A stretch of 64,000 nt of DNA from Prostheceraeus crozeri (Eukaryota; Platyhelminthes; Polycladida; Euryleptidae), in assembly GCA_907163375.1 (NCBI GenBank), contig CAJQUW010010463.1, forward strand, positions 1 through 64,000. Reading direction: 5' to 3'. Position 1 is the first letter of the stretch. Every line of letters begins with the position of its first letter. The position numbers and the translations under genes were made by a program. Below are positions 5,824 through 58,257 of this stretch, in pieces. The notes beneath the pieces were generated by a model that saw only the letters and a list, made by a program, of their open reading frames with translations, was not told where the DNA came from and did not search any database.

Positions 5824-5831
5824 ATTCTCTC

Positions 5832-18532: not shown

Positions 18533-18886
18533 CAGTTGAAAATCAATAACTGCTCAATACCAAACTACCTCTGAAAAAAAGACCGTAGAGTATAATGTAA
18601 ATAGCCTATGAGATCCTTTTTAAACCGGCAACATGATGAGACAAAAATAATTGTCATGGTTGGCCTTCGACTGATAACAAAATTGACTGCACAGTGCCTA
18701 GTCTCCCAACTCTGAACCATAACATTGATTTTCATAATATATTTTTGTATAGGTTGTTTAAAGTTGCACTATTTATATGCTGCATCATAGATATAGAAAT
18801 CATAACGCAAAGGTATAGAGCTGCTTTTGACTAACTATGTATCTACCCTTTAGTCCATATCCAAATTTTAATGAACTATGAGATTC

Positions 18887-19189: not shown

Positions 19190-19199
19190 AAAATTTACT

Positions 19200-24649: not shown

Positions 24650-25114
24650 GTATTGGACGAGATTGTGGCTCTAAAACTGAAATCGAAAGTTGTGGAAAGT
24701 TCATGCATCGTCGAAGAATTGGAAAGTGATGACGAGAGTGCACGTTTCAATGAGCCAAATTCCACAACAAATTCTGTAGAAGAGAAGACTCGAAGACGAG
24801 CTGCTCAGGCGTGGCAGATTATACGCACCAGATTGAACGAAATCAAGCAACAGAGGGCAGAAAATTCGGCGGTTAAGGGTTGGAATATGTTCGCAAAACA
24901 TGCCAGGGCTATGTCAGATTTGGAAAAAGCCAGGGAAGATTTGTATTTGCGCTATGGTGTTTATGGGCCCTCAGAATTTATGCAGAACATTACCACATTG
25001 CCCAGTGGAAAACAAATTTCTGTTGTGGCCAAATCAAGGTCATCGACTCCATGTGTTTCCCGTCCTTCATCCCGAACCAAACGATCTCGGCGTGTCAATA
25101 CCGCGAAATTTTGA
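24650..25114 (+). CDS. 3' terminal exon of an unrecognised gene
   Basis: A strong acceptor (pyrimidine-rich tract, then aattttcAG) at 24648-24649 is followed by a phase-0 open frame of 154 codons ending in TGA. It starts Val-Leu-Asp-Glu-Ile rather than with a methionine, so this is an internal start from an upstream exon. An acidic stretch (Glu-Glu-Leu-Glu-Ser-Asp-Asp-Glu) is followed by a helical, charged segment rich in Arg, Lys, Glu and Gln with regular Trp residues, then Arg-Tyr-Gly-Val-Tyr-Gly-Pro, and a basic Ser/Arg/Lys tail. No membrane segment is seen. The composition looks coding and unlike the surrounding AT-rich DNA. I do not recognise the family. Upstream exons were not identified with confidence; the gene ends before the Ly6 gene starts 2.8 kb downstream. 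Confidence 0.6.
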   Translation, partial: VLDEIVALKLKSKVVESSCIVEELESDDESARFNEPNSTTNSVEEKTRRRAAQAWQIIRTRLNEIKQQRAENSAVKGWNMFAKHARAMSDLEKAREDLYLRYGVYGPSEFMQNITTLPSGKQISVVAKSRSSTPCVSRPSSRTKRSRRVNTAKF

Positions 25115-27933: not shown

Positions 27934-27985
27934 ATGAATCGAGTTGTCTACTGTCTTGCTCTACTTTTCTGCGTTATTGCTACAA
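27934..27985 (+). CDS. Ly6 gene exon 1: signal peptide
   Basis: The exon opens with an ATG in a good context (gccATGa) and encodes MNRVVYCLALLFCVIAT plus the first base of the next codon. It ends at a strong donor, GTGAGT at 27986. With exon 2 it completes a textbook signal peptide: a short basic n-region (Asn-Arg), a hydrophobic core, and a small-residue cleavage site after Thr-Gln-Ala at residue 20. The intron is phase 1, as expected for the Ly6 family. The reading frame joins exactly to exon 2 almost 13.7 kb downstream, which is the main reason to pair the two. Length and position fit the usual first coding exon of a small secreted or GPI-anchored protein. The transcription start was not located. 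Confidence 0.8.
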
Positions 27986-36265: not shown

Positions 36266-36588
36266 CAAAATGGTCTTGAAACAAAGTCTTGATAAAATTC
36301 TTCATGGGAAATTCACAAAATAAGGTCTCAATAGCAGAAATGACTTCAGCAACATCTAAAACCTACGTATCTGTTAAATTTTAGTCGAAAGCTTAATAGC
36401 TTGATAATTTGAAAGCGGTGCTGTAATTAGGACTACTTCCATGAGCCGTGAGAGACTATCGACTTTCTGGCTAAAATTTAACATATACCTATGTTCTAGA
36501 TGTTGCTGAAGTCATTTCTGTTATTGAAACTTTGTCTTGTGGCTTTCCCATGGACAGTATTATCAGGACCATTGTGGAGACCATTTTA
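36266..36588. mobile_element. foldback element with arms over 120 bp
   Basis: The inner arms 36303-36391 and 36473-36553 are close inverted copies, sharing for example cagaaatgacttcagcaaca in opposite orientation. A weaker outer match extends to aaaatggtct at 36267 and its complement at 36579-36588. The loop is about 80 bp. It is noncoding. Target duplications were not resolved. Confidence 0.8.
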
Positions 36589-38219
36589 CACCAATACTAG
36601 ACTTATAAAATTACGAAATCAGTCACTTATTATATATATATTTATAATAAAAAATTAATAATATTTATATATTAATTATTAATTGATATTGAGTACACAC
36701 TCTTCACTGCTATCTATATGTAGTTATTGTTGATATTCTATCATAGATTCTCGGAGTCATAAATTGATGTTATCTTGATGTGTGTCTAAAACACTGACAT
36801 ATTCGACGACGATTGGGACCTGCAATTTATCTGACTGCGTCATCCAATCGAAACCAGGCGAAGTTGTACATATTGTTCTTCTGAGAGAAGTAACCACTAA
36901 TTTGATTTGAAAAAACTTTTCCAATTCTCTTAAATGATCTTGTGAAACGTCGAACAATTCGTCTTTCGAGTTTAGAGCATCCGTTTTAATTTTATCTGAC
37001 ATTGATAGTATCTTTACAATTCTCATATGTTTGTTGAACAAGAATGGATGAGAATTTGTAAAGAAAATATCAATGTCAGAAATTTAGATAAAGATAACAT
37101 CAATCTCAGACGGAGCGTGCTCAATTTCATTCACTAATTTTATGATCTCATGCATGACATCCACAGCTTGCTATCTTCATCTCATAATACTACAGACATT
37201 CTAATTTTTGTGTATGTCATCTAATTGAACGTTTCTGCAAACTTTCTCGCTTGAGGAGGTCGTTTTACCATGAGAATTTACGCATCAATAAAATTTGACA
37301 TCTTATAGCAGCTTGACTTGAACTTTTTATAGTAAACTTATGAACCTATGTTATTTCATCGTTAGTATGTGATTCTCAGCATGTGTATACCTTTGAAGAA
37401 CACAGGCCTTTCATAGAAAGAACTAACAATAATTCGATAGACGAAATATATGAATGCAGAAGATAAAGCAAATTTCTTGATTTTTTCAAATTGAAAATAC
37501 AATATGTTGTTTATGAAATCCATGATTCCACAAAATACGAAACTGCGTCAGTCATTCTAATGTTATACAGTGACAATCGCAAGTGACATTAATACAAAAT
37601 CTGAGATGATATTGAAATAGTATCATGTATCAATCGGAAATCATTTTTTCATTTTGAAATTAAAAAAGTTAACTCAAATAAATCTGATTGAAAGTGAGAA
37701 TAAAAAGAAATAGTCCACCGGCTTACAAACTTGCATCACGTTGTATGGTTGGAATATTTTTAAAGTTTTTAGAGTATGATTTCATTACTCAATGGGACAT
37801 TCGAAATTTTCCATTATGTCACAGTGCAGGATCGCAAGATTTTTAATATTTTTGAATAAAACAGAATTCCGAGATCTATAGTATGTGGGATGGTTAATCC
37901 ATTTCATATTTTTCAAAATTTCAAACCATTTAAAGACTAAGATGGGTTTCTTTCGGCTATTTACAGCAATTATTTGATTGAAGACAAAACTCACATAAAT
38001 GTTCGCGACTATACAGTATGTATGTGTGCATTAATTAATGTTGCTTGATCTCAGAATTGTCAAGGGTCACATCTTCTAAAAGACAGTGATCAAACTTTTC
38101 GCCACCAGACCTGGATGTTGGTAGCCCTGCTTCTAGTGATAAGACTGGCGAAGGAAAATAGATAATTTGGTACAGGTAATTCTTCATCAGTTGGCCAGCG
38201 AGCGATTTACAGCGGTGAT

Positions 38220-38417
38220 GGATATGAAAAGTTTAAAATCAAAACTTCAGATGCTTTCATATGGCCACGCCTGTTCTCTGGGTATATACAACAAGTGAAT
38301 GATGTCCAACGCTAAAAGATAAATATAGCTCTGTGCATTGGTTCAATGTTGTACATACCCAAAGAACAAGCGTGACCATTTGAAAGCATCTGAAGTTTTG
38401 ATTTCAAATTTCATATT
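38220..38417. mobile_element. foldback element with arms of about 75 bp
   Basis: The arms at 38220-38296 and 38347-38417 are inverted copies sharing atcaaaacttcagatgcttt. The loop is about 50 bp. It is unrelated in sequence to the foldbacks at 18.9 and 36.3 kb. Confidence 0.8.
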
Positions 38418-39570
38418 CAAATCGCTTCAACTTATGAATGTAAAAAGTATTTCAGTTAAAAACTGCACATCCTTTAACCGAAGTCACGAATTTACTCGAA
38501 TTTGCGAGTTTTAAACGAATTTGCTGCATCCATCCATTGATGATTGTAGAATAGCTGCTCTAATTCAATTATGAAACTTATCAAAAGTATTCAACCCATC
38601 CGTGAACCACGAAATGACATGGCCTCTTCAAAAGAGTTTTGAGGTCCTTACATGAACTCTACAAGAACTTCTGCTTTCCTTTGATTGAACACAGTAATCA
38701 GATTTTCCACCTGATTTGCAGTTGGCGGTCATTCTTAGAGTCGTACGTAATACTCTGCGACGTATATGACGATCGAAGTGCAAATGCTGTGTTGTTAATG
38801 CGAAGTGTCGGTTGCACTGTTGATGCAGTTGCGGTTGTAAGCATTGAAAATCTTTATCGTTGTCAATCGACAATAGAATTATTCGCCTTTCATCGTTCTG
38901 GTGAGTCAGTGCGTGTTATTGACAGTCAGTGCAACTCTTGATTTAGAAGTTTTAACTTATTGTTTACTTAAAGCAATCTGGCTACGTGAGCCTACCCATA
39001 CTACAGGACACATAACAGATAATCATCATTTGGGATATTGACATGACTAGAGCCACTGCATGAAATACCGTATGTAGCTGTATGCTCAATTGGATGTGAA
39101 AATTGATGAATTTTATTACAGGCTAAAGTTTATGCACCATAATTATAGTGACAATCAATGATTGATTATTGAACAGAGTTCTAAAAGTTGCCATATAAGT
39201 TTTGTAATATATAGATGCTAAATAGGCTATGCACCAAAAAGTTACTGACTGGAATCCTCACAGCGATCAGGTTGTGAATAAGATATGTTTAGTAAATTTA
39301 GCAACTAGACAAATAACTGAAAGTGTTATGTTTTTCCTACGATGGTGAGTGGTAACTGCCTTGCAAACAAGTCAGTTTATCTATTAATTGCAACAAGTGA
39401 CGGACACAAATCAATTAATTATAATTATTCTATCTCATCAATCAATGGATTGCGACCAATTAATTGCAATGCAATTGAATTTTGATGACCCCGCACTGAC
39501 TTTTGTGGCACGCTGAGTCATTTCAGATGAGAATATGTGACTGAGTCTATTTCGATGCTTGATCTTTATG

Positions 39571-39704
39571 AAGGTCATTAACAACAATGAAATTAAATAA
39601 ACGATAGATCAAATTGCCATGCAGAAGATGTGCGGCTGGTAGGATTCGAACCTACGACCAAGGTTAACCAGACCTGTGCTCCAACCAACTGAGCTACGAG
39701 CCAC
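39571..39704 (-). repeat. tRNA-derived SINE, better-preserved copy
   Basis: The minus-strand head (39704 down to 39632) folds into a near-complete tRNA cloverleaf with A box TAGCTCAGTTGG and B box GGTTCGAATCC. The anticodon loop CTGGTTA would read GGT (Thr). An acceptor-stem mismatch, an extra base before the D stem and a poor base pair in the anticodon stem argue against a working tRNA. It is followed by a tail shared with the copy at 23225-23346. The intact internal promoter makes it a candidate master-like copy, but this is inference. Confidence 0.7.
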
Positions 39705-41701: not shown

Positions 41702-41821
41702 CTCAGGCACTGAAATGTCACGTGTGCAACAGCAAACTTAACCCCGACTGCGGGACAGCCAAAGATACAATTAAAGATTGTAAAGCAGGGGAAATGACGT
41801 GTATGAAGCAATATCAGGAAG
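41702..41821 (+). CDS. Ly6 gene exon 2: first half of three-finger domain
   Basis: The 120-nt exon lies between an acceptor with a pyrimidine tract (tttacAG) and donor GTAAGT; both flanking introns are phase 1. It encodes residues 18-57, starting Thr-Gln-Ala-Leu-Lys-Cys. Five cysteines fall at residues 23, 26, 34, 44 and 51: a Cys-x-x-Cys pair, an Asn-Pro-Asp-Cys-Gly motif, an Asp-Cys and a Thr-Cys. This is the N-terminal half of a Ly6/uPAR domain (finger I and the start of finger II); spacing resembles quiver/sleepless-type proteins. It cannot fold alone and needs the five cysteines of a last exon. This is the only copy of exon 2 found, in contrast to three last exons. It is not a complete ORF because it begins and ends inside codons. 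Confidence 0.85.
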
Positions 41822-42659
41822 GTAAGTCTATTCATTCATAATTAATAGAAAATTGATATCTTTGATATTGATTGCATTCTGAAATTGCATTTGAAGATAA
41901 AAATTGGCCGACATGTACAATGTATGACACTGCTAATTCGGCAAACACGCCGATAATGTTGTGTAATAAAATTATTATTTATTAATAATGTTATGTATTT
42001 ATTATTGTCTACTGTACACCGCATTTTCTCGCATAGAACACGCCCTAGAACACATTCGCCACCAACTTCTAGAAGTCGCATATTAATTGAAGAAAACAAT
42101 CATCCCGTCATCAAGAAGAATCCGCACATGAATTTCTTTATTAAGAATATTTTGTAAATTATGTTATAAAACCACTAGAGCGGCAGTGTGACTATATGCA
42201 CTGTATATCTGACGATAAACAGTTTGACAATGGCTGTCGATAACTATTGTTGTTTAGCATGTGACATATCCTTTACAAATCACGATCACTTAGCCGTTAA
42301 AATCATCATGTAATTGCTTGTTTAAGAGATTTATTTTCATTGTTGTATTATCATAAATTATACTTCTTATTGAAATTATAAAAAATGATAGAATCAGTAG
42401 CCGCTCATTTGACTTTTATAAAAATCGATATGAAACAATCAATAAAAATGAAGTTATCGAAAAAACAAACTTTTATCACTTTTCTAAAAATTGGGACTGT
42501 TCAATAGATTAGAATTTTCCCGGTAGAAAATTATATTGATTTAATATTCTGCCAGTTTCAGTGTCATACCGTCGTCAATTTAATCGACTGATCATTCTGT
42601 CGGCTTACTTATCTACGTCGCTTTCGTGCTTTGAGTCCATTTGTTCCAAAGTCATTGGG

Positions 42660-43000
42660 TGAGACTGCTTCTCCTTATGGATCTCCTGCAATCTGACGGT
42701 CAGGGGCTGCTTCAGCTGCTAAGTTAAGCAGACGGCAATCGGATGCCACCGATTCGTCCCAGGTCTTCTTTGGACGCCCTTTCATGTTTTTCCCGTCACT
42801 TACAACTTCCAAACTCCCTTTACCCAGTCTTCTTCCTTCTTTCGATGCACATGTCCAAAACATCTTAAACGATTTCTGCGGATGATGTTACTTAAGGGCT
42901 CTAAGTCTAAGCGTGCTCTCAATTCCACGCTTGAGTAACGTTTCCTGCGTGACACACCACACATTCAACGCACCATGGACATCTCAGCCGTGTATTAAAT
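42660..43000 (-). pseudogene. LINE reverse transcriptase 3' fragment in Ly6 intron 2
   Basis: The minus strand yields Cys-Gly-Val-Ser-Arg-Arg-Lys-Arg and Arg-Leu-Arg-Cys-Phe-Gly-His-Val in one frame. After a frameshift it gives Lys-Gly-Arg-Pro-Lys-Lys-Thr-Trp-Asp-Glu, then a terminal Asp-Arg motif. This is the conserved C-terminal tail of LINE ORF2 proteins. It lies in the intron between Ly6 exons 2 and 3A, in opposite orientation to the gene. It is a different copy from the one at 43555-44155. Confidence 0.8.
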
Positions 43001-43554
43001 CAGTGCAATTTTCTACCGGCAGAATTTTGCTTAATGAACGGCCCCATTGTCAGCGATCACTAAAAATCGAAAGCTGAAGCACAGACTCAAAGCCTTATAC
43101 ACAGACCTAGCCTTCAGACAAAACCAGTCTTCCTAGAAATATAATTTACAAAAACATGCCCTGCTGGTTGTATTTGAGAAAATGCGGTGTATTCAATTTT
43201 CTGGCAAAAAACATATGATACTATTAAATGAGAAATCAAGGTTATCATAGAATTTTGCTGAACAACGAATAACGTGAAGTTGAAAAATTAAACAAAAAAT
43301 GAACAAAATGAAAATTTATTTTCATCAAATTGATTTCTGGCATCCTTAAAATCATCATAGATTTTCGAATAGGATAAATTTCACTTCAAATGACTGCTTA
43401 ATATTGCAACTAACATTAAGACGAATATTTAAGAGAGTAAAATACAGTGACAACCGGCTATACGTAAAGCATGTTTCAATGCCATGCTTCGCTTTGTCGT
43501 TTTGAATAATTGCTATCCAGCTTCTTCGTTTTCTACGTCCGTCCCTGATTATTC

Positions 43555-44155
43555 CACTAGGAGGGGTCGGCGGCCAGAATCCTTGAGCGCCAGAAGCTCC
43601 TGTCTAGAGGCTCCACCGGTTCCACTCGTATGCCTTTAAAACCCTCCTGTATGCAAGGCATCCATCGCTTCCTCGGTCGCCCCCTTTGTCTTTTTCCCTG
43701 TACCACTTGTTCCACGGTCGCCCTTACTGTGTCGGTCTTCTCCATCCGCTGGATGTGTCCGTACCATTTCATTCGGATCTCTCTCACTCTGTCCACAATA
43801 GGGTTCACTCCAAGCTATTTTCTTATCACTTCGCTTCTCACCCTGTCCTTTAGAGTTACTCTTTTGATTACTCTTAGCATTCTCATTTTTTTGTCCTTTC
43901 CAGAAGTTGCTCCTCTTTCAAAGTCATCGTTCAACATTCTGAGCCATATAGAAGTCCTGGTCTGATCATCTCCTCGTACACTTTCGTTTTTTATTTCCCT
44001 TGGCATCTTCTTATCACAAATGACTCCTATCAGTTCTCTCCATTTTGTCCACGTCACCCTCACTCTGACCTGGACTGCTTCTTCGGATCCTCCTTTCTCA
44101 TTGAGTGTCACACCGCGGTACTTGAAACTCACTGGTTGCTCTTCTTAAACCTCTC
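43555..44155 (-). pseudogene. LINE reverse transcriptase 3' fragment, best preserved
   Basis: Read on the minus strand, a frame of about 190 codons is broken by one in-frame stop at 43815-43817. Before it are Phe-Lys-Tyr-Arg-Gly-Val-Thr-Leu-Asn-Glu-Lys-Gly-Gly, Trp-Thr-Lys-Trp-Arg-Glu-Leu and Cys-Asp-Lys-Lys-Met-Pro. After it are Met-Lys-Trp-Tyr-Gly-His-Ile-Gln-Arg-Met and Arg-Gly-Arg-Pro-Arg-Lys-Arg-Trp-Met. A short out-of-frame stretch in the middle suggests compensating frameshifts. It covers the thumb and C-terminal tail of a LINE ORF2 protein without the catalytic core. It is G+C-richer than its surroundings and lies in Ly6 intron 2, antisense. Confidence 0.85.
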
Positions 44156-45070
44156 AAATATCCAGCTAATATTTAAAAAAACAAGTAGAGCTCGTTTTCA
44201 TCTCTCATGACTTGCAGTTTCTTGCAATTAAGTTAAACAGATAAACATATGTAAATGCTATTGCAAGCTATATTCACTCGATGCCGGGGTGAACTAGCAC
44301 TCTGCCATATTTTGTGTAATTAGAATGCATGAGAGAATTGTCCACTTTCCATGTGTAAAAATTCATATGAGTACATGTACGATTTAGGATGTCAAAAATA
44401 TAAACAAATTTCATGCATCGGTTTTCCTTTTAATCTAAGGTCTGAAATAACGATCTTTTTAAAGAAGAGCGACATCGTTCCCTTTAAAATCATTGCCCTA
44501 GAAACGCATCCCCGATATTCCCACTGGTTCTGAATATACGCATATTCGCTCAACGCAATATTTTCCTGAAATGCATCATTTGCATTAGTGCATTAGCGGG
44601 GTGTCACTGTACTTAAGTAAAGTCAGCAATTTTCACCTATTTCTGCTGTGAGATAATGGATGTCAGTGAAGTGATTAATCATTAAATATCTTTCTTTTGA
44701 TAATTCTGGATAGCTTCAGTCACATACAGAACACTGTTTTATTCATGCAACTGCATGATCAAAAATCCAGGACTTTATAATATGCATGTACAATACAGTA
44801 AAATTGAATGTGATATGCATCATATAATGATACACAGCGCATTTGCTCCAAGTCCATACGACATGAAAATAAAGACTATAAAATAGTATATAACAAATGT
44901 AGTTGCATGTAATTCTAGCGAATTCATGCCAGGTAATTCGCTGAATATTATTAATTCGCACTTCCCATGTGAATATAAATTTCTGTAATTCAAAAATTAT
45001 TCTGATACATTTTGGTTAATTTTATGATACAACATATTTAGTAGTCATTTTCAGTTCTTGCGTTTCAATT

Positions 45071-45362
45071 GTGATTCGCTGTTTTCCGTGATTCTGTATA
45101 TGAACAGTGATTCGCTGATTGCTGTGATATTATACACATGCTGTGATTCTTTGACTTTTGTGAACTCATGAACCAACCGTGATTCGCTGATTTTCATGAA
45201 TTTATGAACCAATTGTGATTTGCTGCATGATTTCCGTGATCCTATGCACAATTTGTGGTTAGTTGATTTTCGACATTTTGCGAACTAATTGTGATTCACT
45301 GATTTCCGTGATCCTATACACATGTTGTGATTAGTTGATTTTCATCATTCTATGAACAAGTT
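45071..45362 (+). repeat. 36-bp tandem repeat, eight units
   Basis: Units begin GTGATTCGCTGATT or close variants at 45071, 45107, 45143 and 45179, with later units in the same register. The period is 36 bp except for one 40-bp unit. Because 36 is a multiple of three, the antisense strand carries a spurious repetitive open frame. It lies in the intron between Ly6 exons 2 and 3A. Confidence 0.9.
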
Positions 45363-46459
45363 GCGTTGTGATTTGCAAACTTTTGTTGTGATGAACGAAT
45401 GCAGAAGTTAACATGAAAGCATTTCTCTAGCTGTGTATATGAAAATTCGTGTACTTTCAAAATAAAAACTTGAGAGCAGAGGTCGAGAACATATACCGAA
45501 AATGTTGAAGATGATGATTAAAGAACGATCATGGTAAAGAAAGAATGTTAGGTTTTGGCAACAGATATGATCAATTTATGATGATCATAGGATCAACGTT
45601 TGAAGTGAATAAACGCCCTCAAAGAATACATTTTTAATTTATTGCAAAGTGAAGGCAATTGTCAATGCATTCGATGTGATACCGACCACACAAACAAACA
45701 ATATCAATTGAACGAGCATTGTTTTTGAACAATTAAATATCTATAATTATATTAGTTGCAATGCAGAGTTGGATTAATGTAACAGGACAAAGTTTGTCTA
45801 TCGTTTGTCTGTTAAAGACTCATGGCTTTGAATATTGAGTTCTATCCATCAATGGCAGAAAATGAAATTTTCTTGCTTTTGTCTCAGTACCTGGGAACAG
45901 TGGATGGCAAATCTGACATATCGGAAGCGCTCTACTAAAAATGATCCACAGCTGAGAGCAAATTGAGTCTCTCTGCCATTGAGTACGTTTGAGTATTTTT
46001 TGGATCAAAGTGAGACCTAGCGGTACCGTCCAATCACATACTGAATCAGTGTTGTCAACATAAATGCGATATAAAGTGTTAAAGAAATCGTCTGACAGAC
46101 TCCGTTCAAGGCAATTCCGAAACCGGTAGTTTGCTAGCGCAAGATTGAAAATGAGAATAATCAGAGACAGACAGTATACAGAATTCCGAGCGAAATTTTA
46201 CATTTCTAAGGTAAATACATGCACGTGCATGCATGCATGTGTTTTTCTGGCATCTACAAATCTCAGTGGAAAATCCAAGCACTCGGAAATCGGTGTGAAG
46301 GTCATCGCTTGCGGTCGGAAAATTAAATGCGAATTTAAGTCTTACTTTCCTAATAGGACACTAAAATTCTGGTGAACTTGCAACGTAGGCGATCAATGAT
46401 GATGATGTCAATCAAAATTAGGCACCTCGTAGACACAGGCCTCGAAATTTTGGTGGTGG

Positions 46460-46803
46460 AATCATCTCGTAGTGCAATCCTCTCTTAGTACAATCACCTC
46501 GTAGTGTAATCCCCTCTTATTACAATCACCTCATAGTGCATACACTCCTCTCGTAGTGCAGTCCTCTCGTTGTACAATCATCTCGTAATGCAATCCTCTC
46601 TTATTACAATCACCTCATAGTGCAATCTCTTATTACAATCACCTCATAGTGCAATCTCTTATTACAATCACCTCATAGTGCAATCCTCTCTTATTACAAT
46701 CACCTCATAGTGCATGCAATCCTCTCGTAGTGAAATCCTCTCCTTGTAAAATCCCCTTCCTGTGCAATCACTTCGTAGTACAATCATCTTGTTGTACAAT
46801 CAC
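46460..46803 (+). repeat. CT-rich minisatellite upstream of exon 3A
   Basis: About ten imperfect units of roughly 29-34 bp with a core such as cctctcttattacaatcacc then tcatagtgcaat; each looks like two related half units of about 16 bp. The pyrimidine-rich strand is the sense strand of the Ly6 gene and ends about 130 bp before the acceptor of exon 3A. Confidence 0.9.
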
Positions 46804-46930
46804 TTGCACCCAATTCAATAATACCTCAGCATCTCCAAAATCGGGGCATTCGTCCGTGAATTTGGTCCCGGTAGATTCTTTTATCTATACTGTTCTGTCT
46901 GATTGAATTTCGCAATTTAATCTCTTCCAG

Positions 46931-47136
46931 TTGAAGGTGACATCATAATTAATCGTGGATGCAGTAGGGAAAATAGAGAAAAATACATTAGATGCCGGGA
47001 ATATATCGGAACCCATGAGATCAAGGCAAAGAACTGCTTCTGTCGAGAAGATAATTGCAACTCAGGTTCTCACTTAACAATCTCAATTTCCTTCACAGTT
47101 GCATTGCTGGCAGTTGCAAATCTTCTATTGGTGTAA
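46931..47136 (+). CDS. Ly6 gene last exon, copy A (finger III and GPI-anchor signal)
   Basis: The acceptor is cttccAG, phase 1; the stop is TAA at 47134-47136. Joined to exons 1-2 it completes a 125-residue protein. Cysteines at residues 68, 79, 93, 95 and 100 give the classic ending Cys-Phe-Cys-x-x-Asp-x-Cys-Asn. Asn-Ser-Gly-Ser at 101-104 provides plausible GPI attachment residues, followed by a hydrophobic tail of about 20 residues running to the very end, as in GPI-anchored Ly6 proteins. An ATTAAA at 47379-47384 could serve polyadenylation. By hand alignment it is identical to copy C at 45 of 67 residues, with no gaps. A CT-rich minisatellite ends about 130 bp before the acceptor. It is probably a functional last exon; expression is untested. 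Confidence 0.82.
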
Positions 47137-47830
47137 TGCTGCAATAAGTGAAAGTTAATTTGACGCAATGATAGAAAATGGTTTGAGTTTTTGGAAGTTT
47201 GTAGTTCTAGTTTACATGTAAATAATGATTTCAATATCACTTCATTTTGTGTGATTTTGTTGTTTGTCACTTTGTCGATCAGTCTACACTTTTCATGCAG
47301 TCAGCGAATATGACATTCTGTGACTGCATGATCTGTTGTACTATTGTCTATCTTATGTCGGAAATGCTGTTCTTCTGCATTAAAAGATTTAGATATTTTC
47401 AGTTTTTGTAATGTGATCTTTTGCACATTATGCTTGCAATTATCCTTGATATTGTGTAAAATAGTCCTATAATATATTGCTTTGGGGATTTATCGCTGTT
47501 TTGCAATTACAAAATTGTCTTAAATTATTGGATCATCGATGTGATTTTGATCAGGTGTTGAGCTCAGGTGCAAGGTGTTGAACTCACAGCAGAGTAGACG
47601 TACTACTAGAGGTTTCACGCCGGGTCACAGAGTCCAATGGCTTGATAAGTTAAACTGCGAATTTTATACGCTAGGCTTCGTTGCTCTGAGTCACTTTGTG
47701 TGCTGTGCTACATAAATTTGTCCAAATAATGAATTAATAAAATATTAGAAATTTCTGTGTGTTCATTGAACAACTTGTATTTAATGAATCCATATTCGCT
47801 TCAATGATAACTGCTTGACATTGCTGTGGC

Positions 47831-48100
47831 GCAAAGCTTCAGACACTACTGAAGTGTGTGAGGTCCTTGTCAATGAGATTCCAATCAGCGGTTCTTACAA
47901 TCATGATGCAGAAAAATCTGCAGCATCTGTTGACGCTCATTAATCAAAGGGAGCTCCAGAAGTCGATAAATTACTAATAAAGGTTCCTCCTTGCAATATA
48001 GTGGAAAAGAACGATATCAGAAAATTTTGATTCTTCAATGGAATCATGGAGTTTGGTAAGAAGGTGAGTACTGGAGCAGGTACAGTCAGAATTCCAATCT
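47831..48100 (+). repeat. duplicated intron segment upstream of exon 3B
   Basis: This stretch aligns with 55699-55945 over most of its length, for example around the shared string attccaatcagc and the shared gagcaggtacagtcagaatt. The segment at 47861 begins 711 bp before exon 3B; its partner at 55725 begins 700 bp before exon 3C. The matched distance indicates one duplication that carried the exon with its upstream intron. No cysteine-rich coding content was found in it. Confidence 0.7.
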
Positions 48101-48571
48101 TCTTCTTTAAAACGGAGATAATTCTACAGAACGATGATGGAATTAAGCGAATAAATGTATAAAATATTGCTGATGTCAACAGTTAAAACCGCTAAACTCA
48201 TTATCACAAGAAGATAAGGACATTTCAAGCCAATCAGATTTGATTTTTGAGCAACTGATTAAATTATTGAAGGATTTTACAATGTTAACTAGAATACACG
48301 AAAGCTGAAACGACTAACTATATATTCCATGATCCTGCTTGTGATCATTGCCTTTACAATCTTGATCAAGTTGCAGATTTGCCACTTTAAAAGATACATG
48401 TCATTTCAATCCATTGCTATGAACTGTGTAATGAAATAAGGGTGAAACTCGATTGTAAATTAGCAATGGATAATATTTGAATGGTAAGTGATAGCTAATT
48501 AAAGGTCTTGTGTAATACATAATTATACTTTCTGATTTATTTGAATTTTGCTAATTTGCCCTTATTTACAG

Positions 48572-48801
48572 TTGAAGGAGAAATAATTATAAATCGTGCG
48601 TGCAGCAAGGCCTACGTAAAAGAATTAATCAAATGCACGGAAGTAATTGGAACATATGAAATCAGAGCAGCTAACTGCTTCTGTCAAGTAATTGGATGCA
48701 ACGCTGGCTCCCAACTATCAATTTCAATTTCTTTCAATGTTATACTGATGGCAGTTGCAAGTCTTTTGTTTAGCATAGATAATCATCAATTTGATGGCTA
48801 A
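48572..48801 (+). CDS. Ly6 gene last exon, copy B (divergent C-terminus)
   Basis: The acceptor is atttacAG, phase 1. The exon opens with the same Val-Glu-Gly start as copies A and C, keeps all five cysteines, and is open for 75 residues after the shared valine, giving a 133-residue protein. Three differences stand out. The Arg-Gly-Cys of A and C is Arg-Ala-Cys. The Asp two before the last cysteine is replaced by Ile in Cys-Gln-Val-Ile-Gly-Cys-Asn. The stop codon used by A and C is missing, so translation continues into a polar tail, Ser-Ile-Asp-Asn-His-Gln-Phe-Asp-Gly. The tail follows the hydrophobic segment and may weaken a GPI signal, giving a secreted or membrane-spanning form. A possible polyadenylation signal ATTAAA lies at 49083-49088. 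Alternatively this is a decaying duplicate, although frame and splice site are intact. Confidence 0.72.
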
Positions 48802-50189
48802 TAATCGTCCGACTCCACATTCAGCTACAAGCACGTGGAAATTGCGCGAAGTCTATGACTTCCAACTTTGCTTGAATTCCGTAAATATCGCCTCGTCGCT
48901 CAGTCGCGCTACATGCGCTTCATCTGTTCTTTTGCTTCTCTGAAGTGTACATGCAAATACTTGCCTATTATATACTGCAAAACGACATCTTCACCGATGA
49001 AGAAGTCAACGACATGCACCAAACAAAACGGCGACGCTCGTTGGCTACGGGAGAAAGATGGATGACTAGGGCTACTAAGTAAATTAAATTTCCTAAAATA
49101 ATTAAAAAAAGGTAACAGAAAAAATTTTATGTAAACAATGTGTTCAGAAATCAACGGTGATGGAATTGAATGAAATAATGGAATCCTTTATACGATTGTG
49201 GATTCTTTTAGTGATTTTAGTAGGTTTGTTTTTGAAAATAGTGTATATAATTAATATAAAAGCATATTCAGAAACATCGTCAAAAATATCTGATGCAGTT
49301 CAATGCTATTTCACCGGATGCATACTAAGTTCAACCATACGAGCACAACCAACCATTGTGATAGTAGAGAGGCACTTCAGCATTTTGCGACAGTTTCTTC
49401 CAAAGACCGTAATTTCATTCCCAAAAACATTCATGGCTACTAAAGGATGTGATTAGAGACTAGGTAAATGTTGAGCATGAGTCTACCCAGACCAAAACAA
49501 GATAGCCTTATCTTAGGAAGTCTTATCAATTATGAAGAACTGCTACTATGTAATATATTCCGACAACGGAGCCTCTAACCATACGATGGTGTCTGACTTT
49601 AAAATTGATGGCTATTATTCCTGTGCATGTCAGAGTTAGTGGACCAATGATATTATTACAATGATGCTACCAGTGACGTAGAAGACCTCAACAAAACGTA
49701 TTTTGTTATGGCTGTGCATCCTATCATTAATGAAAGACAAAACATTTATCAAAAAAGCAGAGGGCGGTTGTTGAACAAATAGAAAATAAACGCAATGATG
49801 GGGTAGTTGTATGAAATGAAGCAGATAGGACTATTTTCAATCCATGAGAAGTCGAATGGTTTCAGAGCAATTATACAGGGTGCTTCAAAAAGCCCTTTAT
49901 TTTCAAACGGCTATTGCATGGTATAGACTCAATCTTGAATTCACATTTCGTGCCTTTAATAATGCCTTCAATTTCATGCTTTAATATAACTAGAGTCACC
50001 AACGTAAGTGCATGAGACTTGCCATTGACTTTATTTTCATCTTGATGTCAAAACTTTGGATTGCAAATAATGACCCATATGATAGAGAAAAAAAGAAAAA
50101 CGGTATAAACGATTTTTTCAGTAAATTTCATACGAGCAATAACGGCAACAAACTCAACTAAGTTGCACCACTAAACGCACAGAACAGCC

Positions 50190-50510
50190 AACTCCTCCTC
50201 CTTCGGCGGATTAGTCTTCGAAACGGTTGCCGCTTTCCTGCTCAAGAATTTTCGTCACCGTCCACAATCTTGCGCTTTCCGTATGCAGTCCCTTAGTGAC
50301 ATTCCTGTCGTGTGTCGAATGTCGTCTGACTAGCGCGTCTTGCATCGCCCACGTCCACGATTGTCGTAAACCATTCCCTTGAAGAAGGTCTTTCTCCAAT
50401 CCTTGTTTCCTACTAGGTGTCCAAAGTAACGAAGCTTTCTTTCATCAATCATGGCAAGTAGTCGTTCCACTCTACCAATTTTGGCCAAGACCCATTCTTT
50501 GCTCATTCAC
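50190..50510 (-). pseudogene. LINE reverse transcriptase 3' fragment
   Basis: On the minus strand a frame opening at 50506 reads Met-Ser-Lys-Glu-Trp-Val-Leu-Ala-Lys-Ile-Gly-Arg-Val-Glu-Arg-Leu-Leu, then Lys-Leu-Arg-Tyr-Phe-Gly-His-Leu-Val. The tail, with one stop, includes Ser-Asp-Asp-Ile-Arg-His-Thr-Thr-Gly-Met-Ser-Leu. This is another LINE C-terminal tail, from a different lineage than the copies at 42.7 and 43.6 kb. Confidence 0.8.
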
Positions 50511-50573
50511 TCATACCATCCTACTCGTAGCAATCGTCAATAGCATCATAACTCGAAGCTGGCTATTCTCAAA

Positions 50574-51200
50574 TTAGCATTCAACTTGCCCACCGTCTAA
50601 CTCGATGCAGTCACGACATCGTTTCAAGAACGAGTCGCGGTTAGATTCCAACATGCCTGTTGAAACGGTTGCTATATCAGATTCGATATGTTGTGTAAGT
50701 CGTCAGACATTTCTGTCAACAAAATCTTGTAAACCTGGTCTCTTCCAGCTCCTCAAAAAATCATATATTTTCACTTCCTCCAGTCTAGTAGGTAATTCAA
50801 TCAATCCTCTTCTTCTGATCGATTGATCGATCTGATCGTGAGATTTTCATTCTACAAAGTCCGAACTGCACAACATAAGGAGGACTCCATCTTGCTGATA
50901 AAATTTGCTTCGATCTAATCGCTTTCTGAAAGTATGGAAGCACTGTTCCTCTGATCACATTGCATGACGGGAGTGGATAATTTTTCTGTGTTGATATCAT
51001 CATCAATTGCGCCTGTGGAATCAACCATGTACCACAGTGCAATACCATGACGATCTTGAAGTTTCGCAATTTGCATTGGGGATTGCTTGTTGCCCAAAAG
51101 TGAACATAATGCATATTTACCACACCATTTGCACGCCAATCTGCTTCGTTAGATAAATGTGTAGAAGTGTGCAAATGCTGGTGAGTGGTGATTATCAATT
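50574..51200 (-). pseudogene. mariner/IS630-type transposase, degenerate
   Basis: On the minus strand the sequence begins near 51150 with Asn-Glu-Ala-Asp-Trp-Arg-Ala-Asn-Gly-Val-Val-Asn and Phe-Trp-Ala-Thr-Ser-Asn-Pro-Gln. After frameshifts comes Gln-Gln-Asp-Gly near 50900 (second catalytic Asp block), then Arg-Arg-Gly-Leu-Ile-Glu-Leu-Pro. It ends with a C-terminal segment Lys-Arg-Cys-Arg-Asp-Cys-Ile-Glu-Leu-Asp-Gly-Gly. The order fits mariner-type DDE/D transposases with the third catalytic block eroded. Its last 100 bp recur inverted at 51218-51317. Confidence 0.75.
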
Positions 51201-51217
51201 AATCATTAGCGAAATTA

Positions 51218-51317
51218 CAACCGTTTCAGCAAGCATGTTTGAATCTTCCCACAACTCATTCCTGATACGATGTCGTGACTGTATCGAGTTAGACAGTGGT
51301 CAAGTTGAAGGCTAATT
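51218..51317 (+). repeat. inverted copy of the mariner transposase 3' end
   Basis: In the plus direction this encodes a transposase C-terminus ending Arg-Cys-Arg-Asp-Cys-Ile-Glu-Leu-Asp-Ser-Gly-Gln-Val-Glu-Gly and a TAA stop at 51313-51315. It matches the 3' end of the minus-strand transposase at 50574-50674. The two copies are clearly diverged, so they are separate old insertions or an old rearrangement rather than a recent palindrome. Confidence 0.75.
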
Positions 51318-52089
51318 CCAGAAAAGTGACTGATCTGAGCGTTTAGTAGTTCAACTTACTTGACTTTGTTACCGTTATTACTCATATGAAAATTACTGAA
51401 GGAAGAAAGAAAAATCGATGCTTTATACTTTTTCCTTTTTTCTATCATATGGGTAATTATTATTTGCTGTACAAAATTACTCATTAAACATACATTGTTC
51501 AATATTTCTTTCGTACAGTGAAAATTCAAATGCAAGTTTTGCTTGATTATAACTTCCATGGGATTTTGAGCCTTTTTCCGTGGAAATGAAATGGAAATGG
51601 AAGTCATCGAAATTCTTCCACGGCAGCTCTGCAATGGACGTCATAAGAACACTATAAGGCTATAAGACAAGCTTTCAACCCCTGATTTTGTTGCGATGCA
51701 GTACGACACAGTCTGTGGTTCTTTCATGGAACAAAACACATGTTAATCATGTTGGCCACAGATTGCAGTCTTTGGCAAAAGTGAAAGTATCTTTCTTTTT
51801 CCTGATTAAACGAAAAGTACTGAGCCCAGAGTCATAATTTTTGACATGAAATTGAAGCTAAACACATTCAGATTTGGCAGTCCTTGATAAGCATCCACAA
51901 AAATGTTTAATCCACATTGAGCCACATTCTCGCATACATTGCCGACTAGAAACATAGTGGTAACACATGTACATGATGGGAAATGACATGAAGACATTCT
52001 ATGCCAAAAGTATGACTCAAGACTTTGTATGTTTCACTTAATAAGTCAAAACATAGAAAATTTCATCTTAAACAAAAAAATCTGAGTCC

Positions 52090-52300
52090 CATTGGATAAA
52101 CGTGTGTTTCTTTGATCCTGTCTGACAATAAGAGGAACTCACTAGAACTCGGCAGACGTGCAGATTCGTGGTAGACAAAGGGTGTAGACTGTACAATGGG
52201 TGGACCAAAAAATTTTTAGTGTACATCATTGTGTGAAAGTTTCATTTTCAACCTCGTTCCCTGCGGAAACTCACTCTGGCTGCCAGGCTATGAATGTCGC
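52090..52300 (+). repeat. dispersed repeat family R1, second copy
   Basis: It aligns with 28500-28740 in the same orientation, with an insertion of about 25 bp in the middle. It lies in the intron between Ly6 exons 3B and 3C. Confidence 0.65.
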
Positions 52301-52789
52301 GCCAGTCGCATGAACCACTAAACTGGGTCATGAAACACCAATGAAAGCCTTAGAAGTACACATGAGGCTGGATCTAATCCAATTATAAGAAAATGCGTGC
52401 GTTTTTGTGACACCATTGTAAAAGGTTTATTGCTGTCAACTTCTATGGACAGTGGAATCTCGAATACCGATGCACCTCATTCTTAACTATTTCCATTCAG
52501 GTCAAATCCTTTTTATCACTGAGTGATTTGAATTGTTACATTGAACTACAGCTTACCCATGAAGAACCTTAATGAAGAGACCCTGTCAAGAGACGTTTCT
52601 GAAACATTCCAGCGGGTTTTTCCTTATCTCATCACTGGAGACAGTGATGAGATACAGCAACAACTGGCGATTGCGAATTAATCCACAAATGGCTCCTCCC
52701 TCATCGGGTCTGCTTATTCGTTAAATAGGCCTGCTAATCGCAGCAACAATACATGAATTAGCAAATTAGGCTCAACGTCACTACTCTCT

Positions 52790-52965
52790 CATACTGGGGC
52801 TTGGACGGTGCTGACATAGGCAGACTTTATCTGGAGCGTTGTGATCCTTTGGTCCGGGTGCCCCTTCCTGACGACTTCCAATGACACTTTCGAGGCTCGA
52901 TCTCTGAACCAGGTGATCGCCAGGCCAAGCACTTAACCACTGTATCACGGAGACATGGATGTCTC
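52790..52965 (-). repeat. second tRNA-derived SINE family
   Basis: The minus strand reads gatacagtggttaagtgctt (A-box region) and GGTTCAGAGATCGAGCC, whose GATCGAGCC part fits the B box. It then continues into a non-tRNA body containing ggaagtcgtcaggaaggggc. It differs from the SINE at 23.3 and 39.6 kb. Confidence 0.6.
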
Positions 52966-53289
52966 CAACCGTGAGTCTATTGAGCGACTCGCATGAAATA
53001 TATCTGGACAGAAGACTGATATCTTCAGAAAGAAAAATAGGCAGGGCCTCTATCTTTCCGGAGCTATTCGATAAAGTTAACACTAGAAAGACCAACTTTT
53101 TTTATTACCGTTAAAGACCTTTGGGTCAATTGACCCCTTATATTGAAAAGCATTATGTATGAATTGAAGTTTTGCTATATTGATGTGAAAACGCAAAAAA
53201 ATCACGACACTGATTACAATTCAGTTTTAAATTTAATGGGATTGTATGTAAAGTTATAGCTTTCAAACCTTCGGATGGGAAGCTAAGGG

Positions 53290-54758
53290 AGGTCTACATT
53301 GAATTACTACGATGGTAGAATGTACAACTGACAGATTGGTGAGGAGCACTTGCCACATACAAACTTTTCACATGAGCAGCACAACAATTTTGTTTTGTTT
53401 GACTTAATTTGCAAATCTCACATCTTGTTCGCAAATTGGATAAATCACTGTGATGACTTGAAGGCGCAATGTTAGAAATATGGGGAATGCGGTCGTTTTC
53501 TGGATTATGCTTTGGAACAAAGTACTTGTCCAATGTGCAACATGAAATCACGTCGGGATTCTTGCATTTGACATATTAATCTTCGTGCCAAGGACGCAAG
53601 AGTGCACACACAAATGTCTAACCAAGTTGTAGAATACAGCGAGAGGCCATCTTCTTGAGGCGCCTTTTGTTTCGAATACAACCGTGTAAGATCTGATCTG
53701 CAGTATCTTACTCACACTTCGTTGCGGTTTAATCTGTCATCATTTTGGTTTTTTCTTCGGGTCAGTTTATCGACAATGGTTGATTGTGTTCTGTTGACAA
53801 AACACTTATCCCATGCATGAATAGTATCCATGATTTATCAATTTAAGTATCAATGATTTATCAATGTGACATTTGATGTTGCTCAAAAAATCATGCATGG
53901 AGTTTATTGCAATCAATTGCGAAGTTAACATCAATTTTAACCTGATTTATACTTGAATCATCAAATGCAAGTTTTAAGATATTATAATGCGTTATTTTTG
54001 GTTCAAAAATGATGATCGATGTATTTTGACAATGTATTTTAGCTTTCAATCATTAAACAATGCTTACAACAATGATTTTCAATTTTGAATTTTCAGGGGA
54101 TTTATTTGGAATCATCGATCATGGATTCTGTGGCCATGGGATGGGGCTACTAGTGTATCGTCAAATTGGATGTAACGTTTGATTTCTTTGTATCTATTTC
54201 GACTAGCGTCTGTTGAAAATATTTATACCATATTTCTTGACTCCAGAAAGATGAAAGAGGTTGATTCCTTTCCTTGTCAGTACACCTCGTAATATCAATC
54301 AAGCCAACGAATGACAAGCAAGTCATTTTCTGGTGTTGTTTAAAAATTGTTGGTTCTGTGCGCGTAGCCTCGGCCATTGTAAAGTTCACGCATTTGACGC
54401 GCATTATCATCTTTCCAAGAGTTCTATGAAGATTTCATACTCGTCATTCACCGATTCAATATATAACGTGGAGGGACCTGATTTCGGTGTCTTACCAATT
54501 TTCTGGCAGGGAGATCTTTTCTCTTGTATTGACACTATCAATATCACTTCAGTCCAACAAGTACCGTAGGGTGACGTGAAATGTAGGAATTTCATCTGTA
54601 TGATTTCGCACTGTTATCTGTTTCAGAAGAAGATTCGCTTCTCTCCATAACTTCGTCATCTTCGTCCGTCGCCTCACTACAGGAGATGAATGTAGTGGAG
54701 TTCATTTTCAATTTTCGTCATCGTCACTTTGATAATTATCGTCGGAATCATGAGTCAT
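53290..54758 (-). pseudogene. piggyBac transposase, degenerate
   Basis: Starting at a minus-strand ATG (54758-54756), the N-terminus is acidic: Asp-Ser-Asp-Asp-Asn-Tyr and then Ser-Asp-Asp-Asp-Glu, with Glu/Ser/Asp-rich stretches, typical of the family. Near 54300-54200 are Phe-Val-Gly-Leu-Ile, Asn-Gln-Pro-Leu-Ser-Ser-Phe-Trp and Phe-Gln-Gln-Thr. Near 53650 is Arg-Arg-Trp-Pro-Leu-Ala-Val-Phe-Tyr-Asn, a piggyBac landmark. The C-terminus has Arg-Cys-Glu-Ile-Cys with later Cys and His residues, the remains of the zinc-binding domain. Several frameshifts and stops make it inactive, and parts between 53.8 and 54.1 kb are unreadable. Confidence 0.8.
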
Positions 54759-55001
54759 TGCTCAAAATTCAGCAGCTGTAGTCTTGAACTGTGAGCCATC
54801 AGACACCAAGTGAAGCTTAGAAAATGCACTGAGTGACTAACACGCTGGTGCAACAAAGACGAATCGATAAACCACTTCTAAACTCTCAATATCCTGCTAG
54901 CTCGCAGTTATCACATGCAGAGAGTCTTGTCACGTGGTGTATAGAAATCGGACGATGTGAAGTCAGCTGTTATAGAAAAACCAGGTCATTCATTTTCATC
55001 C

Positions 55002-55263
55002 CATAGAAATTGACAACAATAACACCTCTAGAATGGAAATTATAGCTTCATGCACTGCACAAATAACGGCACATAGTTCGCACGCATTTTTCACTTAGAT
55101 GCACCTGCCTAACGTGGTATCATTGGGTTTAGAATCAGTTCACTTGAGGTAAATCGAAGTTTTAATTGGTTCCTTCATGCCCAAACATAGTTCCCCCGGA
55201 TGTGCCGCGACCTTGAGTCAATTTCCATTCTAGCGAACTTCAGATAAACAGTTTACTTCTATG
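55002..55263 (+). mobile_element. 262-bp MITE, copy 2, nested in a piggyBac element
   Basis: This aligns end to end with 5832-6087 in the same orientation, with small indels. It has the same CATAGAA termini and is flanked by a perfect 8-bp duplication, TTTCATCC, at 54994-55001 and 55264-55271. It sits between the transposase remnant and the outer end of the piggyBac element at 53077-55595, so it inserted after that element did. Confidence 0.9.
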
Positions 55264-55698
55264 TTTCATCCATAGAGATCGGATCTTACTCTTTACATAA
55301 AAGTCATCACTACATTCTTAGCCGCATGTTGAGTTCAAACAGGATAATGTGAATCTGCGATCGAATACAATGAAGAACAAACATGCATGAAAACATTTTA
55401 AAATACGCCATAAAGAAACATCAATCAGAACTAAACAAATTCGGTTTGACGCATCAATCAATTAGTCAGGATACTCTGATTTTGAATTACATTGCTTCTA
55501 CAAGTTTTCATTCGTTGATTTGCCTTCGTCGCCTTGAGAACATAATTTATGGGTCAATTGACCCATCGGTCTTTGACGTTCAGTCACAAATTTAACGGGA
55601 AAATCAACGAATTACTATGTTGATTTTGTGTAACTTAAAGTTTTAGGAAAAGTCAAGGAAGATCGGTGCGCTACAGTTACTCATCACATTTTGTTAAA

Positions 55699-55945
55699 AA
55701 GCTTCAAACATTTTTGAAGGTTTGAGGTCCCTGACAATGAAATTCCAATCAGCATTTCCGTTTACCACAATGAAGAAGAATCTGCAGCATCAAAAGACGT
55801 TAATTTATTAAAAGAAGCTCCGCAGTCGCTAAATTGATACAATATCATGGAGAAGAACAAATTTTATCAGAAAATCGTCATGGAGTTTGGTAAGTAGACG
55901 AATACATGAGCAGGTACAGTCAGAATTCCGATCATCTTTTAAAAC
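55699..55945 (+). repeat. duplicated intron segment upstream of exon 3C
   Basis: This is the partner of the segment at 47831-48100, at nearly the same distance before its last exon. Both copies hold a donor-like GTAAG after a shared ATGGAGTTTG, but no matching open exon precedes it, so it is read as intron duplication rather than a further exon. Confidence 0.7.
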
Positions 55946-56424
55946 TGAGATATTTCCTGTATTTGACTAGTAGGATTGAGAAAATTACTAACAATTATTT
56001 CACGTATTCAGGAGCTTGAATATGGGTATCAGCATAATTATAACTTTCAAAAGTCTGATGTGGTCATCAGCATAGCTAAAGTTTTTAAGAGCTTGATTAT
56101 AGACATTTGCATATTCAAAGTTTTCTGGTAATTGATTGTGAATGGGTGTAATCAAAGTTTTCTGGTAATTGATTGTGAATGAGTGCAATCCAAGCTTCCA
56201 GCAAACTTGTTCTGATCATCCATATGATGTGAGTTTGTCATATTTAAAAGGCTTTTGGTGATTGAAGATACTTCTCATTTGAATGAGCATTTATAGAATT
56301 TGAAATTGAATATTGAAATGCGCAATAATGCTTGAATAGAAAACTATAACTGATTAAAAATATTTATAACTTATACTTCTACTTTTCAATCTACTTTAAT
56401 TTGTAAATATGCTTTCTGTTTCAG

Positions 56425-56630
56425 TTGAAGGGGACATCATTGTTAATCGTGGATGCAGCAAGATAAATAATGAAAAAGAAATTAAATGCACAGAAATAAT
56501 CGGAACCTATGATGCCAAAGCAACGAACTGCTTTTGTCGTGAAGATGGATGCAACTCAGGGTCCCACCTAGCTGTTTCAATTTCTTTTACTGCTGTGCTG
56601 ATGGTCGCTGCAAATTTTTTATTGCTGTGA
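56425..56630 (+). CDS. Ly6 gene last exon, copy C (finger III and GPI-anchor signal)
   Basis: The acceptor is tgtttcAG, phase 1; the stop is TGA at 56628-56630. It encodes 67 residues after the shared valine, the same length as copy A without gaps, and keeps the Asn-Arg-Gly-Cys start, the Cys-Phe-Cys-x-x-Asp-x-Cys-Asn end, the Asn-Ser-Gly-Ser putative anchor site and a terminal hydrophobic tail. The predicted isoform is 125 residues and GPI-anchored. The 3' flank near 56715-56755 resembles that of copy A near 47229-47270, and an AATAAA lies at 57113-57118. It is 14.6 kb from exon 2, with a piggyBac element, a mariner wreck and a SINE in between. Residues that differ from A cluster in the loop between the sixth and eighth cysteines, so isoforms would differ mainly in the presented loop. 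Confidence 0.82.
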
Positions 56631-57419
56631 TGTTCACGAAATGAACAATATTTTTGACTCTATCATAGTTGACTTTTTTCAATTGTTTGTAAGTTGCAGT
56701 TTTGGCTTAAAGATGTTATGCTATTTCACCTTGTGTGATTTACTGTTGTTTGACACGCCTCTTTCATACTATAAAAATATTGAGATTATAGCCATTTTTA
56801 TAATGTGATCCATCACTCAGTAGGCTAGTCAAAATACATGATGTTGTGTAAGCTAGCCTTACACAATATATTGTTTGTTAATTTGCCATTGTCGTGCCTT
56901 TTATTCATAGCATGTCTTATTTTCTATCTACAGGATTCTCGAAAAATTTCATCATCTGACCTATGATGTTATGAAAAAGAATGCTTGATTCTAAAAGTTC
57001 TAATCAATTTCGATGCGCTATTTTAATCAATTAACGTAAATTCTCATGAGCAATTAATCAATTGACATCAAAGTTTCAGGATTAAACTTCATCTATAGTT
57101 TTTCATAAATGAAATAAACAATAGTCATTTAAATGTACTTAAATCATGCAGGTGTCCTACATTTGGTAAAAGCAGCCAAAATAAATCTACGACAGCTACT
57201 TTCAGAGAGCTTGAAAATGAGAAGAAAAGAAATGATGATGAATGCTGATCGGAAAATGCGAACACTGAAAGAGAAAATCGCAGAGAAATGAGGTGTATAG
57301 ATGCGTAGTCACATGGATAAGAATTCGCATTCTATTTGAAATTCTTAGGTCAGATCTCCTGTGTGTTCGAGGAGAGAGTCCACTTTAGGGAAGAAATGTA
57401 TGAGATGATGTCCACCTAA

Positions 57420-58257
57420 GGCCTCTGTCACACACGAAAAGCGTCTTCCATCTTCCATGTCACTCGCATTTTTTCACATTCTTCAGAAGGCGTCTTCCAT
57501 AAGTCGTGATGAGACGATTTTCATCTACCGTCTTCCGCCTTTCCACCTTCCATCTTCCACCTACCGCAGTCACAATACGGAAATCCATTTCCGATTCAGT
57601 CAGCGCTTTTTTCTATTAGCCGTTGCTATGACTACTGTCTAAGCTCTTCTCTTCCTCATCCTTGTCCTCGTCCGACATGGTGAACAAAGAGAAGTTTTCT
57701 GATACGTTGCTTCTCTTTGCAAATCATAGCTTCCTATGTCTTCCCTCAGACGTCACTTCAAGTTATTCTAATTTTAGAACAGTCTGACGGAAGATAAAGG
57801 AAGCTGTTATTTGCGAAGAGAAGCAATGTATCAGAAAACAGCTCTTTGTTCACCATGTCTGACGAGGACAAGATGAGGAAGAGAAGAGCCTTCTAGAAGA
57901 GGAGGAATACTTTTTGGAGAAAGATAGTGAGTCGAAAGATAGAATGAGAATTTCTATGTCTTGTGTTAATCAGCAGGTCAAAGTAAATGTAAATCAAGAA
58001 AGTAGTCATAGCAGCGATTAATTGCAAAAATAGCGATGACTGCATTGGACATAGATTTCTCCTGTGTGACTGCAGTCCTTGGAAGATGGACAATGAAATA
58101 CGGAAGATGGTAGATGAAAATCGTCTCATCACGGCTGATGGGTCTTCCATATATCTTCCATATCTATCCATTATTTTCGCCTTATGAAGAATGTGCAAAA
58201 GGCGAAAAAGGGTGACATGAAAGCTGGAAGACATCTTTTTCTGTGTGACAGCGGCCC
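57420..58257. mobile_element. large palindromic DNA transposon, Harbinger-like ends
   Basis: The ends are inverted copies reading GGCCTCTGTCACACACG and GGGCCGCTGTCACACAG. Long blocks also match in inverted orientation, for example gatgagacgattttcatcta. An inner pair at about 57650-57740 and 57795-57890 contains the same ATG-bearing segment twice, the right one reading Met-Ser-Asp-Glu-Asp-Lys-Met-Arg-Lys-Arg-Arg before a stop. Ends of the form GG(G)CC..GTCACAC and an acidic start suggest PIF/Harbinger, but no matching 3-bp target duplication was found. Confidence 0.65.

Follow-up and report, generated by a model that had tools for sequence, protein, structure and literature searches.

A Quiver-type Ly6/uPAR gene with four putative alternative terminal exons in the polyclad flatworm Prostheceraeus crozeri

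The stretch of DNA analysed here, referred to as the window, comprises bases 1-64000 of the 102,704-base contig CAJQUW010010463.1 in the 2.05-Gb assembly GCA_907163375.1 of the polyclad flatworm Prostheceraeus crozeri; the remaining 38.7 kb of the contig were also examined. The locus contains the front half of a Ly6/uPAR-type gene, followed by a tandem series of homologous last exons that may be joined alternatively to it, three of them in the window and a fourth beyond its end.

Exons of the front half and of the terminal array

The exons and their 3' untranslated regions (3'UTRs) are as follows.

27934-27985, plus strand: candidate coding part of exon 1, signal peptide MNRVVYCLALLFCVIAT(T), ending in phase 1
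41702-41821, plus strand: exon 2, encoding cysteines C1-C5 and thus the N-terminal Ly6 half-domain, with both of its ends in phase 1
46931-47136, plus strand: last exon 3A, coding part and stop, with cysteines C6-C10 and a hydrophobic tail
47137-47504, plus strand: the part of the 3A 3'UTR that has homology in 3D; AATATA at 47471 matches the AATAAA of 3D by eye
48572-48801, plus strand: last exon 3B, five cysteines, C-terminus longer by IDNHQFDG than those of 3A, 3C and 3D
56425-56630, plus strand: last exon 3C, coding part and stop
56631-56898, plus strand: 3'UTR of 3C, aligning as two homologous segments with the 3'UTRs of 3A and 3D, with about 110 nucleotides of the 3D sequence missing
Contig positions 64597-64802, beyond the window: last exon 3D, five cysteines, phase 1, stop TGA

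An initial annotation, made from the letters of the window, had already placed exon 2 and the last exons 3A, 3B and 3C at these positions, and the analysis confirmed them, with phase 1 throughout, five cysteines in each exon and good splice sites. Indeed, the donor of exon 2 (AAG/GTAAGT) lies at the 99.9th percentile of GT sites, and the acceptors of exon 2, 3A, 3B and 3C lie between the 92nd and 98th percentiles of 3333 AGs, by a simple score in both cases. All junctions are in phase 1, and the join of exon 2 to a last exon reads ...QYQE-V-EG..., with E-V at the junction. When the exon 2 peptide was searched against the whole genome at expectation values (E) up to 1, the only match was exon 2 itself (one candidate, one scored); such genome peptide searches score the best candidates only, and the assembly may be incomplete. 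Neither nhmmer nor tblastn revealed a second exon 2 in the window, and the remaining 38.7 kb of the contig yielded neither an exon 1 copy nor an exon 2 copy. The signal exon had been invoked by the initial annotation without a position, and a candidate can now be supplied. Of six candidates on the plus strand up to 46900, each combining an ATG, a hydrophobic core and a phase-1 donor, the one at 27934-27985 ranks first; its donor is CAA/GTGAGT, in phase 1, and it lies 13.7 kb upstream of exon 2. We infer that the signal exon is best placed there.

The last exons are clearly related to one another. Among those in the window, tblastn gave E from 4e-23 to 8e-30, a similarity that excludes chance. 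A genome-wide search with the 3C peptide listed six matches, four of which are the members of this array (3C itself, 3D, 3A and 3B, E 4.7e-39 to 1.7e-19), and the remaining two are weak (E 0.47 and 0.66). No fourth last exon was detected within the window by nhmmer and tblastn; 3D starts 597 bases beyond its end, with the acceptor TTCTCTTCCAG and an AATAAA 554 bases downstream of its start. Thus, the three last exons initially described are all present, but the array is larger than had been proposed and the 3' end of 3B is changed. The stop codons lie at 47134-47136 in 3A, 48799-48801 in 3B and 56628-56630 in 3C, and 3A groups with 3D (FastTree support 0.955). Homology between 3A and 3D runs from about 57 nucleotides before the acceptor to about 28 nucleotides past the AATAAA of 3D, an extent that fits a terminal exon plus its 3'UTR and not an arbitrary segment. 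Both ends of this homology are found in 3C, with the roughly 110 bases in between missing. In 3B, homology to the other last exons is lost at 48770, a short way ahead of the stop codon that they share, after which come IDNHQFDG and an unrelated 3' region.

Repeats and a tRNA gene also occur around these exons. The putative first intron contains a tRNA-Thr gene on the minus strand (39630-39704, anticodon GGT by ARAGORN, 41.5 bits with Rfam); a GGT anticodon is unusual for a eukaryotic threonine tRNA. A tandem repeat array with periods of 16 to 174 bases occupies 46456-46806, just before 3A, and may have replaced older intron. A pair of repeats, 91% identical, lies at 5831-6091 and 55001-55267, the second copy falling between 3B and 3C.

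Domain, variable segments and constraint

When exon 2 is joined to each last exon in turn, the predicted products match the Pfam family QVR (Quiver, PF17064) with 42.2 bits for 3A, 36.2 for 3B, 43.8 for 3C and 42.0 for 3D, all four above the family cut-off of 27.3 bits. Each contains ten cysteines in the order of the Ly6/uPAR (LU) domain, five from exon 2 and five from the last exon, the final one being followed by asparagine (C-N). With the candidate exon 1 included, the gene has three exons, all introns are in phase 1, and the second intron falls between C5 and C6. Three exons, phase-1 introns and an intron at the tip of loop 2 are described as the normal Ly6 plan (PMC6600238). Two further Quiver-family matches occur in the genome (L001:1501-1743, minus strand, and L002:1501-1767, plus strand), and each has the complete domain within a single open frame and so apparently does not have the usual loop 2 intron. 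A sequence search against solved structures with the product of exon 2 and 3C returned three weak matches to snake neurotoxins (E 0.04-0.09, over 34-37 residues), which were not used for function.

The names of the fingers were assigned from the order of the cysteines and from the Ly6 plan. Among 3A, 3B and 3C, the ten-residue segment leading from the junction up to C6 is identical at 7-9 of 10 positions per pair, the linker between C6 and C7 is the most variable stretch (2-5 of 10), and finger III, between C7 and C8, is intermediate (7-8 of 13). Given the variable linker and the near-invariant stretch up to C6, a swap of last exons would mainly alter the linker and finger III and leave finger II nearly constant, and the earlier suggestion that part of finger II is exchanged is not borne out. 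The hydrophobic C-terminal tails are alike in 3A, 3C and 3D, and such a tail is probably a glycosylphosphatidylinositol (GPI) signal. Beyond the best 15-residue hydrophobic stretch, measured for 3A to 3C, there is one residue in 3A, seven in 3B and five in 3C (NFLLL), and the eight residues added to the tail of 3B are hydrophilic. The proposal that the isoforms differ in attachment is consequently not supported for 3A, 3C and 3D; only 3B, with its extra residues, might differ.

Selection on the last exons was evaluated from pairwise ratios of nonsynonymous to synonymous differences (pN/pS) with bootstrap ranges. The ratio was 0.22 (0.10-0.43) between 3A and 3D, 0.29 (0.16-0.48) between 3C and 3D, and 0.44 (0.27-0.76) between 3A and 3C, values which indicate that 3A, 3C and 3D are under purifying selection. 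Neutral simulations were also run for the retention of an open frame with five cysteines. For 3B, both were retained in 0.7% of 20000 runs, starting from 3D with 0.27 changes per site, the length of its FastTree branch; with other assumed stop-free ancestors the proportion was 0.5-2.8% at 0.2-0.3 changes per site. The branches of 3A, 3C and 3D are short, so that retention of frame and cysteines is not significant for any of them singly, and for these exons the evidence is the pN/pS ratio.

Choice of the last exon and competing explanations

Taken together, these observations point to a single Quiver-type Ly6/uPAR gene with four alternative terminal exons, a reading to which we assign a probability of roughly three in four. 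One set of upstream exons precedes a series of homologous last exons, each with an acceptor, a stop and a 3' end; 3B is the member without the shared 3'UTR. Choice of the last exon, as put forward by the initial annotation, is the best reading because exon 2 is unique, the last exons lie in one array, and 3A, 3C and 3D are constrained; in part, as with finger II and attachment, the original proposal was overstated. In such a gene, the signal exon at 27934 and exon 2 at 41702 would form the front, followed by the terminal exons 3A, 3B, 3C and 3D in tandem. In each transcript, the sole strong donor of exon 2 would be joined to a single terminal exon, and those further downstream would be excluded by cleavage and polyadenylation behind the chosen one. 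Signal peptide, finger I and the outgoing finger II strand would then be common to all isoforms, which would vary in the linker between C6 and C7, in finger III and in the hydrophobic tail at the C-terminus.

The introns before 3B and 3C contain, in addition, a conserved block.

47833-48124, plus strand: conserved intronic block upstream of 3B, ending 447 nucleotides before the acceptor
55698-55956, plus strand: conserved intronic block upstream of 3C, ending 468 nucleotides before the acceptor

The two copies, of about 290 nucleotides, are identical at 205 of 255 aligned columns (80.4%). Between the block and a point 120 bases short of the acceptor, the introns of 3B and 3C show 43.7% identity, where shuffled sequences average 44.4%; identity is 66% over the final 100 bases of the intron and 71% in the exons. 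No further copy was found in the window or in the rest of the contig, including the regions before 3A and 3D. Both copies contain an identical TCATGGAGTTTGGTAAG with a donor-like site. The block was tried as a first exon (ATG GAG TTT G/GTAAG, identical in both copies, phase 1), and this was rejected, as the product would have no signal peptide and half a domain. No reading frame runs uninterrupted across the block in both copies; a short segment, NEIPIS...SAAS, reads alike in both before a stop, and a small coding piece is possible. Pairing of the block with intron 2 in the manner of Dscam was also rejected: the best window for both copies reached -38.3 kcal/mol, with scores below this in 2 of the 15 shuffled controls (best -39.2). 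A two-sequence consensus fold gave 38 pairs, 3 of them changed on both sides, which is too little for a claim of structure, and Rfam at a relaxed threshold returned for 47700-48580, around the 3B copy, one match far under the cut-off. The block could serve as a control element or a promoter, or it could be a repeat.

Several points weigh against a gene with four working last exons. The search of a protein collection returned no homologue. The pN/pS ratio of 3B is 0.50 against 3A (0.32-0.79), 0.50 against 3D (0.32-0.80) and 0.56 against 3C (0.36-0.89), so that this exon is weakly constrained relative to every other. It differs from 3D at 27 of 67 amino acids, within the neutral range of 23-35 simulated at its own branch length, and it has lost the shared stop and 3'UTR and gained a hydrophilic tail. 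For branches as short as those of 3A, 3C and 3D, moreover, frame and cysteines were retained neutrally in 8.6% of runs at 0.12 changes per site and 4.3% at 0.16. Selection of this kind is an average since duplication, and a more recent loss may have occurred. In snake three-finger genes, duplicated copies of exon 3 are reported that are dead (PMC10421932). The snake precedent and these features of 3B would suit an array in which one or two terminal exons, 3A and/or 3D, are used and 3B, perhaps with 3C, is a dead or dying duplicate. We consider this unlikely, as the low ratio between 3C and 3D argues for constraint on 3C, and 3B has kept an intact acceptor together with an open frame and five cysteines, an outcome rare in the neutral runs. 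Within a gene with four alternative ends, 3B may be relaxed or derived.

The last exons could also belong to separate, whole duplicated Ly6 genes in which the first two exons have been lost, are not in the assembly or have diverged beyond recognition. Ly6 genes are described as expanding through gene duplication (PMC6600238), and the limits of the genome search given above leave this explanation some room; nevertheless, it appears very unlikely, since four intact last exons would require three lost partners, and one exon 2 match and four last-exon matches in one array argue against separately duplicated genes. The spacing is also tight: 97 nucleotides separate the AATAAA at 47736, after 3A, from the start of the 3B block at 47833, or 329 nucleotides if counted from the end of the shared 3A 3'UTR at 47504, which leaves little room, and neither exon 1 nor exon 2 was found between 3A and that block. 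In a further scenario, 3B and 3C would be transcribed from promoters of their own in the block and trans-spliced to exons 1 and 2. The conserved block, its similar distance from the two acceptors and the shuffled-level identity of the intron that follows it would be compatible with this, and there is a precedent in Drosophila, where the mRNAs of mod(mdg4) are reported to be trans-spliced (all of them according to PMC12692577, at least 18 isoforms according to PMC4528330), as is one isoform of lola. However, no such block was found before 3A and 3D, its promoter role is conjecture, and all four last exons lie on one strand, so that cis-splicing suffices; we regard trans-splicing as extremely improbable. 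A broader version, in which the block is a portable control cassette (an internal promoter or an element for exon choice) inherited together with 3B and 3C, making them a separately regulated and possibly trans-joined pair, is itself quite doubtful. If it were true, a Ly6 gene encoding a cell-surface protein would act like a small version of lola.

Elsewhere in the window, the plus strand carries an open frame of 169 residues at 24605-25114, possibly an exon of a neighbouring gene, with no Pfam match at E up to 1, and a fragment of a DDE transposase at 13365-13652 (PF13358, E 1.7e-10). Four near-palindromes, 74-84% self-complementary, lie at 18884-19192, 36267-36587, 38219-38419 and 57643-57889 and are perhaps foldback elements.

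Relation to known genes and meaning for the family

The diversity of Ly6 proteins is usually attributed to whole-gene copying, and the initial annotation had taken a single last exon as the rule for their genes. This claim of novelty is not supported, as the third exon of human LY6K is reported to be duplicated twice, with all three isoforms apparently functional (PMC10421932). Compared by description only, the two loci are alike in being Ly6 genes with several copies of the last coding exon, three in LY6K; here the gene is of the Quiver family, the copies are four and the tails are alike in 3A, 3C and 3D, whereas only some LY6K forms are reported to be secreted (PMC10421932). With this precedent, the arrangement is of a reported kind, to which four copies and a Quiver-family gene are added. 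Duplication of exon 3 within one gene is also described for snake three-finger genes, but there the extra copies are pseudogenised and lie before the original exon 3 (PMC10421932), whereas the four copies found here are open and retain five cysteines each.

Similarity can also be drawn to Drosophila mod(mdg4) and lola, in which constant 5' exons are combined with alternative 3' terminal exons; these loci differ in encoding BTB regulators with variable zinc-finger ends (PMC12692577, PMC4528330). At the level of the protein, Drosophila Ly6 genes of the quiver/sleepless and boudin type share with the flatworm gene a single ten-cysteine domain, a hydrophobic tail and the Pfam QVR assignment, but they are described as clusters that arose by gene duplication, and the available part of that account mentions no array of terminal exons (PMC6600238). 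Among the papers listed in literature searches, some of which gave the first 20 of 37, 10 of 168 and 10 of 5,219 papers, no arthropod Ly6 gene with alternative last exons was found.

If the proposed organisation is correct, a fixed finger I combined with four different back halves would represent a natural set of isoforms that vary at a few defined places, and with it one could test directly how the C6-C7 linker and finger III contribute to the choice of a partner. Together with LY6K and the exon 3 copies of snakes, the locus would suggest that repeated last-exon duplication is a recurrent event in widely separated lineages of the Ly6 family.

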